Shown here: piece by piece, positions 44,037 to 49,153 of the stretch
Layout of the letters: each line of letters begins with the position of its first letter
Position numbering within the stretch: the first letter of the stretch is position 1
From: Sphingobacteriales bacterium
GTDB taxonomy: Bacteria > Bacteroidota > Bacteroidia > Chitinophagales > Chitinophagaceae
Length of the DNA stretch: 64,000 nucleotides
Direction of reading: 5' to 3'
NCBI GenBank assembly: GCA_004144185.1
Contig: SEFP01000001.1
Span: 992,001-1,056,000 of the forward strand
The notes under the pieces: model-generated
What the model saw: the letters and a program-made list of their open reading frames with translations, nothing else
Told to the model about the DNA's origin: nothing
Databases searched by the model: none
Position numbers and translations under genes: made by a program

Positions 44037-44945
44037 ATGGAATACAGCAAGGAGAAGATTACAATAGAAGCGCAAATCAAACTTCTACAGCAGCGTGGGC
44101 TTATCATAGAGGATGCGGAAGAAGCAAAAAGGTTTTTGAGCCATGTGAGCTATTATCGCTTGGCAGGTTATTGGTGGCCTTTTCAACAGGATAAGATAAA
44201 TCACATTTTTAAGCCTGATAGCTTTTTTAAGGACGTTGTCTCTCTTTATGAATTTGACCGTAAACTTCGTTTGCTTCTATTTAAAGTTATTGAACGAATA
44301 GAAATCAGCCTTCGCACAAAGCTGATTTATCATCTTTCACATGAGTTTGACCCGTGGTGGTTTCAGCGAACAGAACTCTTCATCAATGTTCGCGAACTGG
44401 CTATGACACTTGCTTTGCTGGACGAAGAAATAAGCAGATCCAGAGAGGCATTCATTAAAGAGCACAAGAAGAAATATACTGATGACGGACGCTTTCCACC
44501 TGCCTGGAAATCTTTAGAATTAACCAGTTTTGGTGCGCTGTCTAAATTGTATGGCAATCTAAAACATACCTGTAAATCAAAAGACCTTATTGCAGCAGAG
44601 TTCGGAACCGTAAACCATACGTACTTACCGAGCTGGCTTCAATCGATTACGCAGATCAGAAATCATTGCGCCCATCATAATCGATTGTGGAATCGAAACC
44701 TACCGGGTAGACCTAAATTACTTTCAAGACCACCCTTTTCTTGGGTAGTAAATGTTCCTAAGGAGAATGAATTTGAAAAGTTGTATGTGCACTTATGTTG
44801 TATGAAATATTTGCTTGACCGCATAGAGCCTATCAATTCTTTCACTCAAGAGTTAGAACGGATCTTAATCGAGCACCCTAATGTTGACCCTAACGCGCTT
44901 GGGTTAAAACCTGACTGGCAAGAAGAGCCGCTTTGGAAGATATGA
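44037..44945 (+). CDS. AbiF/Abi_2-family HEPN protein (abortive-infection toxin)
   Basis: 302 residues. The N-terminus ITIEAQIKLLQQRGLIIEDAEEAKRFLSHVSYYRLAGYWWPF is the Abi_2 (AbiD/AbiF) signature, so the protein is complete. The HEPN ribonuclease motif Rx4H is Arg208-Asn-His-Cys-Ala-His213 in QIRNHCAHHNRLWNR; a second candidate is RTKLIYH near residue 93. AbiF proteins block phage growth, probably by cutting RNA. The gene is clearly AT-richer than its surroundings and has no TTCCGGAA, in line with horizontal gain. The ATG follows a terminator-like hairpin with no room for a ribosome-binding site. It converges on the next operon. Confidence 0.9.
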   Translation: MEYSKEKITIEAQIKLLQQRGLIIEDAEEAKRFLSHVSYYRLAGYWWPFQQDKINHIFKPDSFFKDVVSLYEFDRKLRLLLFKVIERIEISLRTKLIYHLSHEFDPWWFQRTELFINVRELAMTLALLDEEISRSREAFIKEHKKKYTDDGRFPPAWKSLELTSFGALSKLYGNLKHTCKSKDLIAAEFGTVNHTYLPSWLQSITQIRNHCAHHNRLWNRNLPGRPKLLSRPPFSWVVNVPKENEFEKLYVHLCCMKYLLDRIEPINSFTQELERILIEHPNVDPNALGLKPDWQEEPLWKI

Positions 44946-44961: not shown

Positions 44962-45666
44962 TTACCCAAATGCAATCGCGATTTTCTTTTTCACCTCCCA
45001 GGCGCTTCCGTCAAGTACCGCGAGTCCTGGCTGCTGGGTAAATCGGAACGTAGCTGGATCGGGCATCCCGGAAAATGTACAGGCAGGCAGCAGTTCTAGA
45101 TCCCGGAACGCCTGTGCATTGCGCATATCAGTCGCGTCCCCGGCAAAAACAATCTCAGCTTCGTCGGGCGTTTCCGGAGCTACCGTAAACCGGTACAAAC
45201 AACCCGTCGGCTGGCTTTTGCGCGCCCCGGCGGCAAACCGGCCATCGGTACCCGGTACCGTCAGGTAAAACACATCCGGCATAGGCGCTTCAGGCTCTTC
45301 AGCAACGGGTGCTTCGGTTACGTCCGGTTGAGGTTCCGGTGCTTTTTTAATCACCGGCTCCGGCACCACAATGGTTTCCGGAATAAACGGGGGAGGTGCA
45401 GGAATCGCTTCTTCCACTACTTCCTGTTCGGTCGGTTCCGCAAGGACTTCTATCTTTTTTCTTCGCTTCAGCTTCCGGAAATTCAGGAACAGCCCCAGCG
45501 TAGCAAACACCACCACCACGATAATCAACCCGATCAAAAACGGCATATTGACGCCGTCAAACGCATTGCTCGACTTCCGGACGCGTACAATCTGGGTGGT
45601 AGTGTCCTGTGCCCTTCCGGAAAAAGCAGTCGCCAGCAGTAGCAGCGGTAAGAATACAATTCGCAT
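44962..45666 (-). CDS. Membrane-anchored partner protein of the actin-like ATPase operon
   Basis: 234 residues from the ATG at 45666. A probable signal peptide (1-19, FSGRAQ) is followed by a short periplasmic part and a membrane span (about 42-62, FLIGLIIVVVVFATLGLFLNF). Then comes a basic patch (RKLKRRKK), a long Pro/Glu/Val-rich cytoplasmic linker (about 75-140) and a compact C-terminal domain (about 145-234, VFYLTVPGTDGRFAAGARK ... WEVKKKIAIAF). I recognise no family. It begins 7 nt after the stop of the giant ATPase gene, so the two are an operon, and its cytoplasmic domain could tether the ATPase to the membrane. Confidence 0.8.
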   Translation of the reverse strand: MRIVFLPLLLLATAFSGRAQDTTTQIVRVRKSSNAFDGVNMPFLIGLIIVVVVFATLGLFLNFRKLKRRKKIEVLAEPTEQEVVEEAIPAPPPFIPETIVVPEPVIKKAPEPQPDVTEAPVAEEPEAPMPDVFYLTVPGTDGRFAAGARKSQPTGCLYRFTVAPETPDEAEIVFAGDATDMRNAQAFRDLELLPACTFSGMPDPATFRFTQQPGLAVLDGSAWEVKKKIAIAFG

Positions 45667-45673
45667 GGTCAAC

Positions 45674-48600
45674 TCAGGCGGGTGTTTGGGCAATTTGAGC
45701 GGCCAACTGATTTAGCAATGGGATGAGCGGGTAGAAAAACAACGTTTCCTGCAACGGCTCTACCGATTCAGTGGTCTGGTCGCCCCGCTTTTTATTAATG
45801 CCTTCTTCCAGCGAAATCCGCAGGTCCCGGCGAAGGATCGCATCGTAGCGTGTGTACGACTGCATATCGACATCAAACAGCGATTTCAGATTCAGTTGCT
45901 GGTTCCAGTCCCGGAACCAATCCAGGAAACGGGTCACTTCTGCGACGGCACCGTCCTGCACCTCGGGCCGGTCCAGATCCGCGTAGGTCAGCGATTGCCC
46001 TTCCTGATCCTTTACAGCGGGCAACACACTGCGTTTCACGTCTTCGGTCAGCTCCCGGCTGGTCAGGTTCAGCCCCCCTTTGGCAGTTACTTCCTTGGGA
46101 TTGTCTACACGCTTCAGGCGGATGTCATTCACCGGCTGTTCGTACACCGATGTAAAAATGGCATTGGTAAAGAGTGCCAGATTCTTCAGCGGCGGGTTGC
46201 GGCTGGTATCGAGCAGGTCGAGGAATTTAGAGCCGCTTCCGCTAAACGTAATATTCTGCGGGTACGGATACTGACCCGCTTCCATCCAGCGGGCCGTATG
46301 ATAAATCATCGCGGCAAACGCCAGCAACGGTACCATCTTCAACTGGGTATGCTCCTGCAGATACCGCGTAAAGTCGATCCCGTACTGCCGGTATTCGGGG
46401 TGACGGTGCAGCGTAAACAGAAACGAAATCACATCATCGGAATCCTGCCGGGCTTTAAGCGACCGGTATACCTCGCGGAACTGGCCCAGGCTGATGTTGG
46501 GATCGTCCATGATGCGGCGTAACTGCCCGTCTTCAAACGCCCGGATAAAGCCGTTGTTATCGGCATTGCTGCCATAGCCATCTCCAAAAATGGCATTGCC
46601 CGCAAAACGGAACGAGGTACTGTCAACCGGCGATTCGCCTTTAAAAAGTACCAGATCGGTGGTACCACCGCCAATGTCGATATTGACGGAATGACTGTTG
46701 CCGACGATCATGCCGCCGCTGTGTTTGTAATAGTAGAATGGCGCAACCGACTCCGACAGCCGCTCGATACGTGCCTGTGGCGACAGATAGGTCCGTACAG
46801 CCATGTCCCAGATTTCTTCCAGCCGGCCGCGCTCATACGAGGTCATACTCGACGGGTAAAACCAAACGATTTTGGCGGTCTCTACGCGGCCGCCATTCAT
46901 CAGAATTTTGTTCCGGATCAGCATCACCAGTTCCTCAATAAAGGTGCTGATGCGGTTGCGGCTTTTACCACCCGGATCATTGCCGGCCCATTTCAGGTTG
47001 GTAATCGCATCCTGATAGTTGGAGGTATCGCCGCGCTCGTAGGTAAAGGCAATATTGTTTCCGGCCAGGGCCTTGCCTACGGCCATGCGTCCCAGTCGCT
47101 TGCTTTCGTACAGGACCGTACGCTGCGGAAACGCATAGTTTCCGTCGCCGATGGTTTCCGGAAGCAAATCAGCATGGTGGGCTTTGAGGAGTACGCCCAG
47201 GCCCCGGCGCATCTGGCTCAGCTGGTTGTAGTTAGCGTCGGTATCCAGATGAAGTAGTCCTACCTGGCTCTCCTTACCGCCCATGGTAAATGGCTGTGCC
47301 GGACCGCCGTTCACGCTGTATTCGATATGCGTGTTGGTGGTTCCAAAATCTACGGAGAAGACAAACTGCGCCTGTCCGTCGGGTGGGTTCCGGAACTTCG
47401 GAATCAGCAGTCCGGCGAGCGGCAGATTGCTGATGACCTGGATAAAGTCAAACTCGCCGTCGAGGGCGTAGATATCGGTGGTGAAGTATTCCTCGCTTTT
47501 ATCTTCTTTACGTTGCACCGCGGCAACCGGTCGTTCGGTTCCGGAAGCGTCGTCTTTGAAGAACGCCAGCCGGTAGTTCAGGTGGCGGGTATGGGCTTCT
47601 TTGTCGGCATCGGCCAGCAGCACGCGGTAGTGCGCATTTTCATCGGTGCCGGTTTTCAGAAACGGATACAGCGCCAGGGTAAAAGCCGCGTCGCTGATCA
47701 CGCCTTTGTTTTCGTCCGGAGCCGGTCGTTGCGGCAGTTCTACACTCTGGCTGGTTTTGTAAGTGCGCTTGAGTTCAATAAAATTGCCTTTCTGAATGGG
47801 CAGCCGCAACACCGCATCGATGGATCCGGCCACGCCTTTTTTCAGCTCAAACATTTTCAATCCGGTACCCGGCAGTACGCCCTGAAGATCGGCGACCGAG
47901 AAATAGCGGAATACGGCCGGCTTCAACGGTAGTGCATAGCCGGTTTCAGACTCAAGATGCCCGGTAAAAAACCGCTCCCCATCCATGGCAAACGGCAAGC
48001 GGATGAGATAGTCTTCCAGCAAATCGGAGACGGTCAGATACGGGTAGGAGACCTGCGCCATTCCGGGCAACCGCCGACTTTCAATCGGTGCGGCATCGGC
48101 ATAGGGCACACGGGTATCGGCACTCCAAGGCGAGCCTACATACTGCAACGGCCGTGGATAACTGTAGGTCGGCAGTACCAAGGGCAGCGTTCCGGATGCC
48201 ATTTTGCCGGCACCGGGCAGCAGCCGGAAGTCGGATGCTGCCACCTGTTCGTCTACACCGGCAATGCCTTTGAGCGGATGCCCGAGGATTTCAGGATGAT
48301 CGCCCGCACCGGTGGTTGCAATCGTAATATCGGTGTAGGTACTGTCGTAATAAAGTGGGTTAAGCGCACGGATTTGCGCCTGTGCCGCTTCCGGAAGCTT
48401 TGGAAAAATGCCGTCGAGCAGGTAGCCGTTGAAGTCGCTGAACCGCTCGCCAAACTGCGGAATCGACTCGCGCAGGGCAAATACGTACCGGATAAAATCT
48501 CCGGTTCGCCGGTGCAGGGCGCGGGGCGGACCGGCAAAAGCTTTGCGATCGCCGAGGTTGATGTTGACAAACGACAGATCGTTTCCGGACGAAAAGGTGA

Positions 48601-49153
48601 TCGTGGCCGGAGAGGTACCGCCAATGATGTTCAGCGGGTTCGGTCCGGCAGTGTAATTGAGCAGATACAGTTGCCGGAGCTGCGTGAAATTGTACGAAGC
48701 CGCGTCCTGCTGGAGGAACATTTTCAGGGTTTGGCCAAACAGCCGCTGGGCCGGACCGGATTGAGTGCCGAGCAGTTCGCCCAGATCGCTGGCCGGATCG
48801 ATTGTAATTTCCGATCCCTGCAACCGTACGCCGCTGTTCCAGGGAATGATTTCAACCGTATTGCCGAGCAGCGGTGCCTGAAAGAAAATCTCCAGGACGT
48901 CGAGGCAGTCGGAGACAATTTTATGATAGATGGTGGTGCCGTCGAGCTGCCCAGTGGCATTGAGCTGCCGGTAGGCATTTTTGGCCACATCAATACGGGC
49001 AAAAGGAGTGGGAATCGAGGTAATCTCATGGCTCACCTGGGCACCGGCCGGATCGGGGATGGTGGCAATATGCACATCCTGCATCGGTGCGGTTTCCTGC
49101 CAGTCTTCAACCGTTTCAGAGCCGTTGGTATGGAGGCGAAAAATCTTGTTCAT
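45674..49153 (-). CDS. Giant actin/Hsp70-fold ATPase with a large unknown N-terminal region
   Basis: 1159 residues, no signal peptide. From about 596 to 1010 there is an actin-superfamily ATPase: phosphate-1 VDFGTTNTHIEYS (Asp602), phosphate-2 NIDIGGGTTDLVLF (Asp826), and the adenosine motif FSGSGSKFLDLL (Gly972 region). The first 590 residues match nothing I know (beta-rich, with DVLEIFFQAPLLGNTVEIIPWNSGVRL and YSYPRPLQYVGSPW), and about 150 C-terminal residues are also unassigned. SrfB-type and other long actin-like proteins share this size class, but I cannot assign it. It is the first gene of a two-gene operon with a membrane protein. Confidence 0.85.
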   Translation of the reverse strand: MNKIFRLHTNGSETVEDWQETAPMQDVHIATIPDPAGAQVSHEITSIPTPFARIDVAKNAYRQLNATGQLDGTTIYHKIVSDCLDVLEIFFQAPLLGNTVEIIPWNSGVRLQGSEITIDPASDLGELLGTQSGPAQRLFGQTLKMFLQQDAASYNFTQLRQLYLLNYTAGPNPLNIIGGTSPATITFSSGNDLSFVNINLGDRKAFAGPPRALHRRTGDFIRYVFALRESIPQFGERFSDFNGYLLDGIFPKLPEAAQAQIRALNPLYYDSTYTDITIATTGAGDHPEILGHPLKGIAGVDEQVAASDFRLLPGAGKMASGTLPLVLPTYSYPRPLQYVGSPWSADTRVPYADAAPIESRRLPGMAQVSYPYLTVSDLLEDYLIRLPFAMDGERFFTGHLESETGYALPLKPAVFRYFSVADLQGVLPGTGLKMFELKKGVAGSIDAVLRLPIQKGNFIELKRTYKTSQSVELPQRPAPDENKGVISDAAFTLALYPFLKTGTDENAHYRVLLADADKEAHTRHLNYRLAFFKDDASGTERPVAAVQRKEDKSEEYFTTDIYALDGEFDFIQVISNLPLAGLLIPKFRNPPDGQAQFVFSVDFGTTNTHIEYSVNGGPAQPFTMGGKESQVGLLHLDTDANYNQLSQMRRGLGVLLKAHHADLLPETIGDGNYAFPQRTVLYESKRLGRMAVGKALAGNNIAFTYERGDTSNYQDAITNLKWAGNDPGGKSRNRISTFIEELVMLIRNKILMNGGRVETAKIVWFYPSSMTSYERGRLEEIWDMAVRTYLSPQARIERLSESVAPFYYYKHSGGMIVGNSHSVNIDIGGGTTDLVLFKGESPVDSTSFRFAGNAIFGDGYGSNADNNGFIRAFEDGQLRRIMDDPNISLGQFREVYRSLKARQDSDDVISFLFTLHRHPEYRQYGIDFTRYLQEHTQLKMVPLLAFAAMIYHTARWMEAGQYPYPQNITFSGSGSKFLDLLDTSRNPPLKNLALFTNAIFTSVYEQPVNDIRLKRVDNPKEVTAKGGLNLTSRELTEDVKRSVLPAVKDQEGQSLTYADLDRPEVQDGAVAEVTRFLDWFRDWNQQLNLKSLFDVDMQSYTRYDAILRRDLRISLEEGINKKRGDQTTESVEPLQETLFFYPLIPLLNQLAAQIAQTPA

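Follow-up and report, generated by a model that had tools for sequence, protein, structure and literature searches.

The genes considered here, ACT and PAR, lie side by side on the minus strand of a 64,000-nucleotide stretch of DNA (hereafter the window) from a Sphingobacteriales bacterium (GenBank assembly GCA_004144185.1, contig SEFP01000001.1, positions 992,001 to 1,056,000). The first encodes a large actin-fold ATPase and the second a partner protein predicted to be tethered to the membrane, and both appear to belong to a wider gene set in which a tubulin-like GTPase, a predicted lipoprotein and a small membrane protein recur. In coordinates of the window, the features of the pair are:

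45674-49153, minus strand: ACT, large actin-fold ATPase, 1159 residues, reading frame without internal stops
45667-45673, minus strand: gap of 7 nt between the ACT and PAR reading frames
44962-45666, minus strand: PAR, membrane-tethered partner, 234 residues
44965-45285, minus strand: C-terminal domain of PAR, 107 residues as folded, predicted to be mixed beta with one helix

The first-pass annotation of this DNA had described two genes with this anatomy, and the description is borne out by the stop-free frame of 1159 residues and by PAR 7 nt downstream. ACT consists of an N-terminal region of about 590 residues of unplaced fold, followed by the nucleotide motifs and by a C-terminal region of about 150 residues without a family match. 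The motif residues are D602 (in DFGTTNT), E801 (SESVAP), D826 (DIGGGTTD) and G972 (GSGSK); Asp602, Asp826 and the GSGSK near 972 had been named beforehand as actin/Hsp70 motifs, at these same positions. The motifs are not attributable to chance, because all four residues are invariant in the 14 aligned members of the ACT family (14/14), and on their basis nucleotide binding is predicted. Family profiles recognise the protein only weakly: against Pfam and NCBIfam, short matches fall at about residues 820-855 (EutA 0.0021, BeeR 0.003, FtsA 0.0072), the best FtsA score over the 14 members is 1.6e-5, and no match of the 1159-residue protein reaches the curated cut-off of the MreB and FtsA actin families. 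By profile, the closest solved relative is MreB (3.7e-4, over 39 positions only). Residues 1-590, which the first-pass annotation could not place, have no Pfam or NCBIfam match at E<=1, and this region aligns together with the remainder of the protein out to a cyanobacterial plasmid homologue, in a family whose members range from about 1040 to 1300 residues.

The PAR frame starts with an ATG at 45666-45664, 7 nt past the ACT stop codon TGA (45676-45674), whereas the mechanical list of open reading frames (ORFs) uses an earlier in-frame TTG at 45693; the two genes may be translationally coupled. PAR has an N-terminal signal-like stretch, a single strong hydrophobic segment (residues 34-66) followed by RKLKRRKK, a linker rich in proline (residues 76-130, 15 Pro) and a C-terminal domain of about 105 residues, which the signal, the hydrophobic segment and the charge would place in the cytoplasm. 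The G, W and C columns of the alignment of this domain are nearly invariant. The best of five structural models has a mean pLDDT (predicted local distance difference test) of 76.8, the other four reaching 31-65, and a search of the PDB with the model returned nothing at E<=0.001.

When neighbourhoods of up to 20 kb were read and their ORFs clustered by blastp, a block recurred upstream of the actin gene, in the order lipoprotein, small membrane protein and tubulin/FtsZ-like GTPase, and this clustering was the first unsupervised evidence of the block. The predicted lipoprotein has about 410-530 residues, the small membrane protein about 145 and the tubulin-like protein about 490. Downstream of the actin gene PAR is found, joined in many loci by a MotA/ExbB-like and an OmpA/MotB-like gene. 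The components were then scored with eight family hidden Markov models (HMMs) on 29 loci plus two cyanobacterial loci, and since the models were trained on proteins of those loci, the training members match by construction. Twenty-four of these loci bear an actin gene: those of G000 (the window's genome), G002, NC_022111, G004, G006, G022, G008, G303, G220, G437, G409, G126, G421, G073, G359, G145, G238, G336 and G269, three IMG/VR contigs (two of them near-identical) and two Picosynechococcus plasmids. In 21 of them the tubulin gene immediately precedes the actin gene, in two it lies at another place in the genome, and in one the two share a frame. The caller used for the ORFs, greedy and based on length, chose wrong strands in places. 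In locus L002 it hid the ZorA-like gene, which was recovered by scanning all ORFs, and the same applies to L036.

A PAR profile match adjoins the actin gene in 13 of the 24 loci, 12 of which built the profile, and the locus of G145 is truncated by a contig end. The proteins in the partner position of G409 (locus L027) and of the cyanobacterial loci have no match to the PAR HMM. PAR is thus the less constant element of the system. The same annotation spoke of a two-gene system, which is too few: the tubulin-like, lipoprotein and small membrane-protein genes belong to it as well, although in the window's genome they lie elsewhere. By sequence, the system has a recurring core of four components (the predicted lipoprotein, the small membrane protein, the tubulin-like GTPase and the actin-like ATPase), to which PAR and a ZorA/ZorB-like pair are frequently added.

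The family assignments of the core differ in strength. In Pfam, the first tubulin-like member matches Tubulin (3e-4) and Tubulin_2 (1.6e-3), and 13 of 14 members match Tubulin_2 at E<=0.1 (best 3.2e-9); the Tubulin_2 scores of the first member and of the window's own genome (1.9e-4) lie under the Pfam gathering score. From its GG[ST]G and FGGTG loops, the protein is predicted to bind GTP. The lipoprotein carries an N-terminal lipobox-like cysteine, invariant in the 13 aligned rows (13/13), and an [ED]xSxS pattern resembling a metal-ion-dependent adhesion site in 14 of 15 members (L028 is the exception), a motif by which alone it may be called vWA-like. One to three hydrophobic segments are predicted in the small membrane protein, three in L020 and one above threshold in the window's genome. 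Beside the system, a retropepsin-like (gag-asp_proteas) protein recurs (L024:12896-13471, L023:5636-6184, L117:291-866), and a 38% identical stretch lies on a separate contig (C15) of the window's genome.

Since the 24 loci had been found through actin or tubulin searches, a survey of 395 genomes spanning the phylum is the fairer test of co-occurrence. The tubulin profile matched in 14 of them and the actin profile, counting long or N-terminal matches, in 11, all of which also have the tubulin (11/11). Fisher's test on these counts (11/0/3/381) gives p 5e-19, uncorrected for relatedness. Matches of any length to the actin profile occur in 351 of the 395 genomes; the listed matches left out of the count, which span some 30-80 positions at a single nucleotide motif, presumably belong to FtsA/MreB/Hsp70-type proteins. 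Tubulin and actin distances are strongly correlated (Mantel r 0.94, reached by none of 5000 permutations), which partly reflects shared ancestry. With ACT itself as query, matches were obtained in 6 of 59 relatives and in 10 of the 395 genomes, its own genome included in both cases; a scan of genome contigs found one relative, and a 30% identical match lies in the 1.77-Mb Prevotella record NC_022111.1. This record is labelled a plasmid; it is chromosome-sized and perhaps mislabelled.

By this count, three genomes have the tubulin only. Directly downstream of the tubulin gene, G336 has an ORF of 1166 residues that is weakly actin-like (blastp 2.5e-6). In G269, a divergent draft genome of about 190 contigs, a single ORF of 1615 residues (L097:548-5395, G269:C35) holds regions of both kinds: residues 1-224 match the tubulin profile (pairwise hhalign E 4e-9, probability 96) and residues 1020-1303 the actin domain (E 1.5e-8, probability 95.5). 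The third, G440, which is listed with 13% contamination, carries a degraded copy (L096:1924-7413, G440:C38) without an actin match, in which a stop lies inside the tubulin gene and the small membrane-protein gene is in two pieces, the ZorA/ZorB-like and retropepsin-like genes being still recognisable.

In the window's genome the parts are scattered. A single strong match to the tubulin profile (C1:554025-555485, 4.8e-172) lies on the contig of the actin gene, at a distance of about 482 kb, and its locus also carries a small membrane-protein gene and a lipoprotein gene. A third locus, about 180 kb from the actin gene, holds a solitary ZorA-like gene (C1:1221582-1222808, profile 5.5e-63):

L115:7489-8820 (C1, about 1221489-1222820), minus strand: ZorA-like gene, ORF of 443 residues

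By eye, this ORF lies between an apparent pheS and a response regulator; the protein alone has no Pfam match, and the ZorB-like profile returned nothing at E<=0.01 in this genome. Despite the 482 kb between them, the four nearest relatives of the tubulin are also those of the actin, and they rank identically. An operon that has been split while its parts are retained argues for a shared function. Two of the four genomes of the genus have both tubulin and actin and the other two, one of them 83% complete, have neither. The sister genome G002 has one strong tubulin-profile match, a ZorA-like gene about 340 nt after PAR and, near the start of another contig, a short ZorB-like C-terminus (1.4e-5). 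The surroundings differ even within the genus, because among 15 genes of the window only the ACT-PAR pair matches the 23-kb locus of G002.

Genes resembling the proton motor of Zorya are, like PAR, a frequent addition. ZorA- and/or ZorB-like genes are found at 10 of the 24 loci (G002, G006, G008, G220, G437, G409, G126, G359 and two IMG/VR contigs), a synteny that suggests coupling of the system to a motor. With PADLOC, the scores are 1.7e-9 for a ZorA2-like, 6.8e-12 for a ZorB1-like and 1.8e-27 for a ZorB3-like protein in G359. The OmpA match of L020 (3.9e-6) is accompanied by an OmpA/MotB-like family found by HMM in nine further loci, seven of which built the model (L085 and L086 are near-identical and L096 is broken). 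The best PDB matches of the ZorB-like profile are 8vvn, 8vvi and 8qyd (8e-8 to 2e-6), against 0.026 for MotB (6ykp); we take these three to be Zorya entries, an identification that cannot be read from the deposited names alone. The match of the ZorA-like profile to 8vvi_F is weak (0.012), and an unrelated coiled-coil protein scores about equally. It may be asked whether the system is Zorya-type defence proper, with a ZorAB motor sensing the entry of phage and the actin/tubulin block serving it as an alternative set of effectors. The preference of the PADLOC and PDB matches for ZorB over MotB speaks for this, as do the ZorA-/ZorB-like genes downstream in G006, G008, G220, G437, G409, G126 and the two near-identical IMG/VR contigs. 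In six genomes with the block, however, no ZorA-like protein was detected, the window's genome yields a ZorA-like gene only, and a distant one, and no Zor family appears among 129 flanking proteins at E<=1e-15. Nor did PADLOC find ZorC/ZorD, ZorE or ZorF/ZorG effectors in 10 system proteins or in those 129 of the 155 flanking ORFs. This explanation is considered rather doubtful.

The set also occurs on mobile DNA. Four Picosynechococcus plasmids match the divergent actin of G359, and the two examined (L119, L120) show the same gene order and sizes. On the plasmid of strain PCC 8807, the HMMs match the lipoprotein (1e-15), the tubulin (5e-48) and the actin (5e-34); hhalign gives E 6e-38 for the tubulin, E 1e-7 for the lipoprotein and, across profile positions 63-1036, E 2e-39 for the actin, the small membrane-protein gene being assigned by position. 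The plasmid genes are annotated as hypothetical or unknown, and after the set comes a protein whose layout resembles that of PAR but which the PAR HMM does not match. A search of plasmids with the G238 protein gave no match, and the phage collection had no match to ACT or to the G336 protein. A phage-adjacent copy comes from IMG/VR contig 3300034171_000222, where the genes stand beside PHROG matches for tail, DNA-methyltransferase and metalloprotease proteins, with more phage-like genes recognised by eye:

L084:815-8116: set of five genes, located at one end of a 27-kb IMG/VR contig that also carries phage tail genes

Given this position at the contig end, phage cargo and host flank cannot be told apart. 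The patchiness, the plasmid copies, the phage-side copy, the broken G440 copy and the differing surroundings fit an accessory, movable function. The set might also serve Bacteroidota gliding or secretion as an accessory resembling the type IX secretion system, as the phylum and the genes resembling motors driven by the proton-motive force (PMF) would allow; its presence on plasmids of Cyanobacteriota and the lack of the tubulin in 381 of the 395 genomes of the phylum sample make this highly improbable.

With the gene next to the pair in view, the first-pass annotation had suggested a defence, secretion or cytoskeletal system:

window 44037-44945: AbiD/Abi_2 gene, convergent with the ACT-PAR pair

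It had been read as AbiF; it is AbiD by PADLOC (1.2e-78) and Abi_2 by Pfam (1.9e-56), not specifically AbiF, and nothing in the 23-kb locus of G002 matches it. A comparison of the flanks with control regions gave no clear enrichment in defence genes. The flank set comprised 129 of 155 ORFs (omitting 16 of the IMG/VR loci L084 and L085, and 10 that were short, cut or oversized) and included the AbiD gene of the window among its PADLOC matches. The control set comprised 133 of 204 ORFs and drew on 12 of the 13 regions; L110 was dropped by hand, as were many ORFs that were long or short, and the regions were placed at round coordinates rather than at random, with none for G022 and the Prevotella record.

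The lack of clear defence-gene enrichment in the flanks is in keeping with another explanation, in which the NTPases shape the inner membrane as a remodelling or vesicle-forming cytoskeleton without a defence role. In the available text of the paper on the FtsZl1 system, membrane remodelling is proposed for a combination of tubulin-like, vWA, OmpA-family and membrane proteins (Makarova and Koonin, 2010; PMC2875224), and the composition found here is as described there (Tubulin_2 in 13/14, a vWA-like lipoprotein, OmpA/MotB-like genes, several membrane proteins); the parts are moreover retained at three loci in the window's genome. A very patchy distribution (14/395 genomes), the plasmid-borne copies, the phage-side copy and the Zorya-like motor genes are less easily reconciled with remodelling, which is regarded as a possible explanation, though not the favoured one.

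The reading that we favour, at about an even chance, is that the ACT-PAR pair is part of an accessory trans-envelope machine in which actin-like and tubulin-like NTPases cooperate at the inner membrane. The trigger would probably come from the periplasm, and in many cases a PMF motor would be coupled to the machine. The lipoprotein, predicted from its signal to lie on the periplasmic side, would sense or bind something at the outer membrane or the wall, and the small membrane protein would relay its state inward. On the cytoplasmic face, the GTPase and the ATPase would bind each other and form or control an assembly, a contact suggested by the one-frame protein of G269 and by the co-occurrence; the single transmembrane (TM) segment and flexible linker of PAR would hold this assembly at the membrane. 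Where present, the ZorAB-like motor may link it to peptidoglycan and power or trigger it through the proton gradient. The use would be a conditional response to an envelope insult rather than housekeeping, with phage attack, itself a hypothesis, as the leading candidate; anti-phage defence is plausible but unproven. A membrane-bound machine had been proposed from the pair alone, and the locus still looks like one, without such a description in the literature searched; the proposal was too narrow in its parts. In a more specific and tentative form, this would be a mixed actin-tubulin cytomotive or signalling assembly on the inner membrane, its GTPase and ATPase forming a single polypeptide in one genome, driven or triggered by a Zorya-like proton motor, plasmid-borne and once phage-side, in at least two phyla. 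The likelihoods of this reading and of its alternatives overlap and are not meant to sum to one.

Several results weigh against the trans-envelope machine. Of 8 genomes searched for a ZorA-like protein, 6 gave no match, and of 11 searched for a ZorB-like protein 7 gave none, the window's genome being among these 7; the motor is therefore not constant. Pfam VWA matches none of the 13 lipoproteins (0/13), and AlphaFold2 with five sequences gave no usable fold for full-length ACT (mean pLDDT 36.3). The actin HMM at E<0.05 omits the proteins of G336 (L094) and G269 (L097), whose actin assignment comes solely from blastp and hhalign. In the core, no known nuclease or other effector was recognised, and PADLOC at E<=1e-15 gave 14 family rows for 129 flanking proteins against 10 for 133 control proteins, no clear enrichment, though a modest enrichment in defence genes would be compatible with a difference of that size.

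FtsZ and FtsA are the classic pair of tubulin and actin type; to our knowledge, it would be very unusual for one small accessory gene set to pair an actin-fold NTPase with a tubulin-fold one almost constantly. Searches of the open-licence PMC literature brought up no description that we recognised as that of this actin-tubulin set. The set could represent a novel type of envelope-sensing defence, or else a part still missing from bacterial membrane remodelling, and the Picosynechococcus plasmids offer tractable hosts in which to study it.

Among known systems, the MreB/FtsA/Hsp70 superfamily shares the phosphate, connect and adenosine motifs with ACT, which matches it over only about 30-40 residues and has the extra N-terminal region of 590 residues. 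SrfB (PF07520), presumably also a large actin-fold protein, matches 3 of 14 ACT members weakly (best 0.0042), far too weakly to assign the family. With Zorya, the system has in common a pair of MotA/TolQ-like and OmpA/MotB-like proteins, of which ZorB is the best profile match; it differs in that no ZorC/D/E-type effector is found among the proteins tested and the motor is undetected in many loci. The vWA force transducers beside TolQ-like motors (PMC12204202) are vWA-type periplasmic proteins near PMF-motor genes and in this resemble the protein called vWA-like here; those described in the available text are TM-tethered, whereas here a predicted lipoprotein stands with tubulin- and actin-like proteins.

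Tubulin, HSP70 and vWA are also grouped in GTPase-centred conflict systems in the available text of Kaur et al. (2020; PMC7159879), and the set might accordingly be an NTP-dependent conflict system with polymerising "effector" NTPases. The ingredients are similar (tubulin, an HSP70-type fold, vWA, membrane proteins), and both the retropepsin-like protein of several loci and a TerD gene in G238 would suit such a role. TerD-type genes (L095:1171-3062, G238:C4) follow a divergent lipoprotein-TM-tubulin-actin set, and the one tested matches PF02342 (1.4e-70); the neighbours of the G238 gene look similar by eye. Tubulin-like, vWA-like and TerD-type neighbours, the last once, do occur, as the first-pass annotation had suggested. 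Tubulin and HSP70 are separate themes in the available text of PMC7159879, however, and its systems are built on a DO-GTPase/GAP1 core, neither member of which was noticed in the loci, where no model-based search for them was made; on balance we judge this explanation unlikely.

The closest known system is the FtsZl1/vWA/OmpA system (Makarova and Koonin, 2010; PMC2875224), for which no tested function was found in the literature searched. As that paper describes it in the available text, a divergent Tubulin_2-class FtsZ/tubulin shares an operon with a vWA-type protein, membrane proteins and sometimes an OmpA-domain protein, in a patchy distribution over many phyla; the set described here resembles it in these respects, its lipoprotein being vWA-like by motif. 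In the main text of that paper "actin" never denotes an operon partner, though one may be among the families A1-A2 and B1-B9, which are left without names there. The loci described here differ in that the tubulin almost always comes with a large actin-like ATPase, in one case within a single reading frame; their OmpA protein resembles ZorB/MotB and is paired with a ZorA-like one, and the genes may lie apart. The FtsZl1 system would thereby acquire an actin-like partner, in many loci also a motor module, and a one-frame form suggesting direct contact between its two NTPases.

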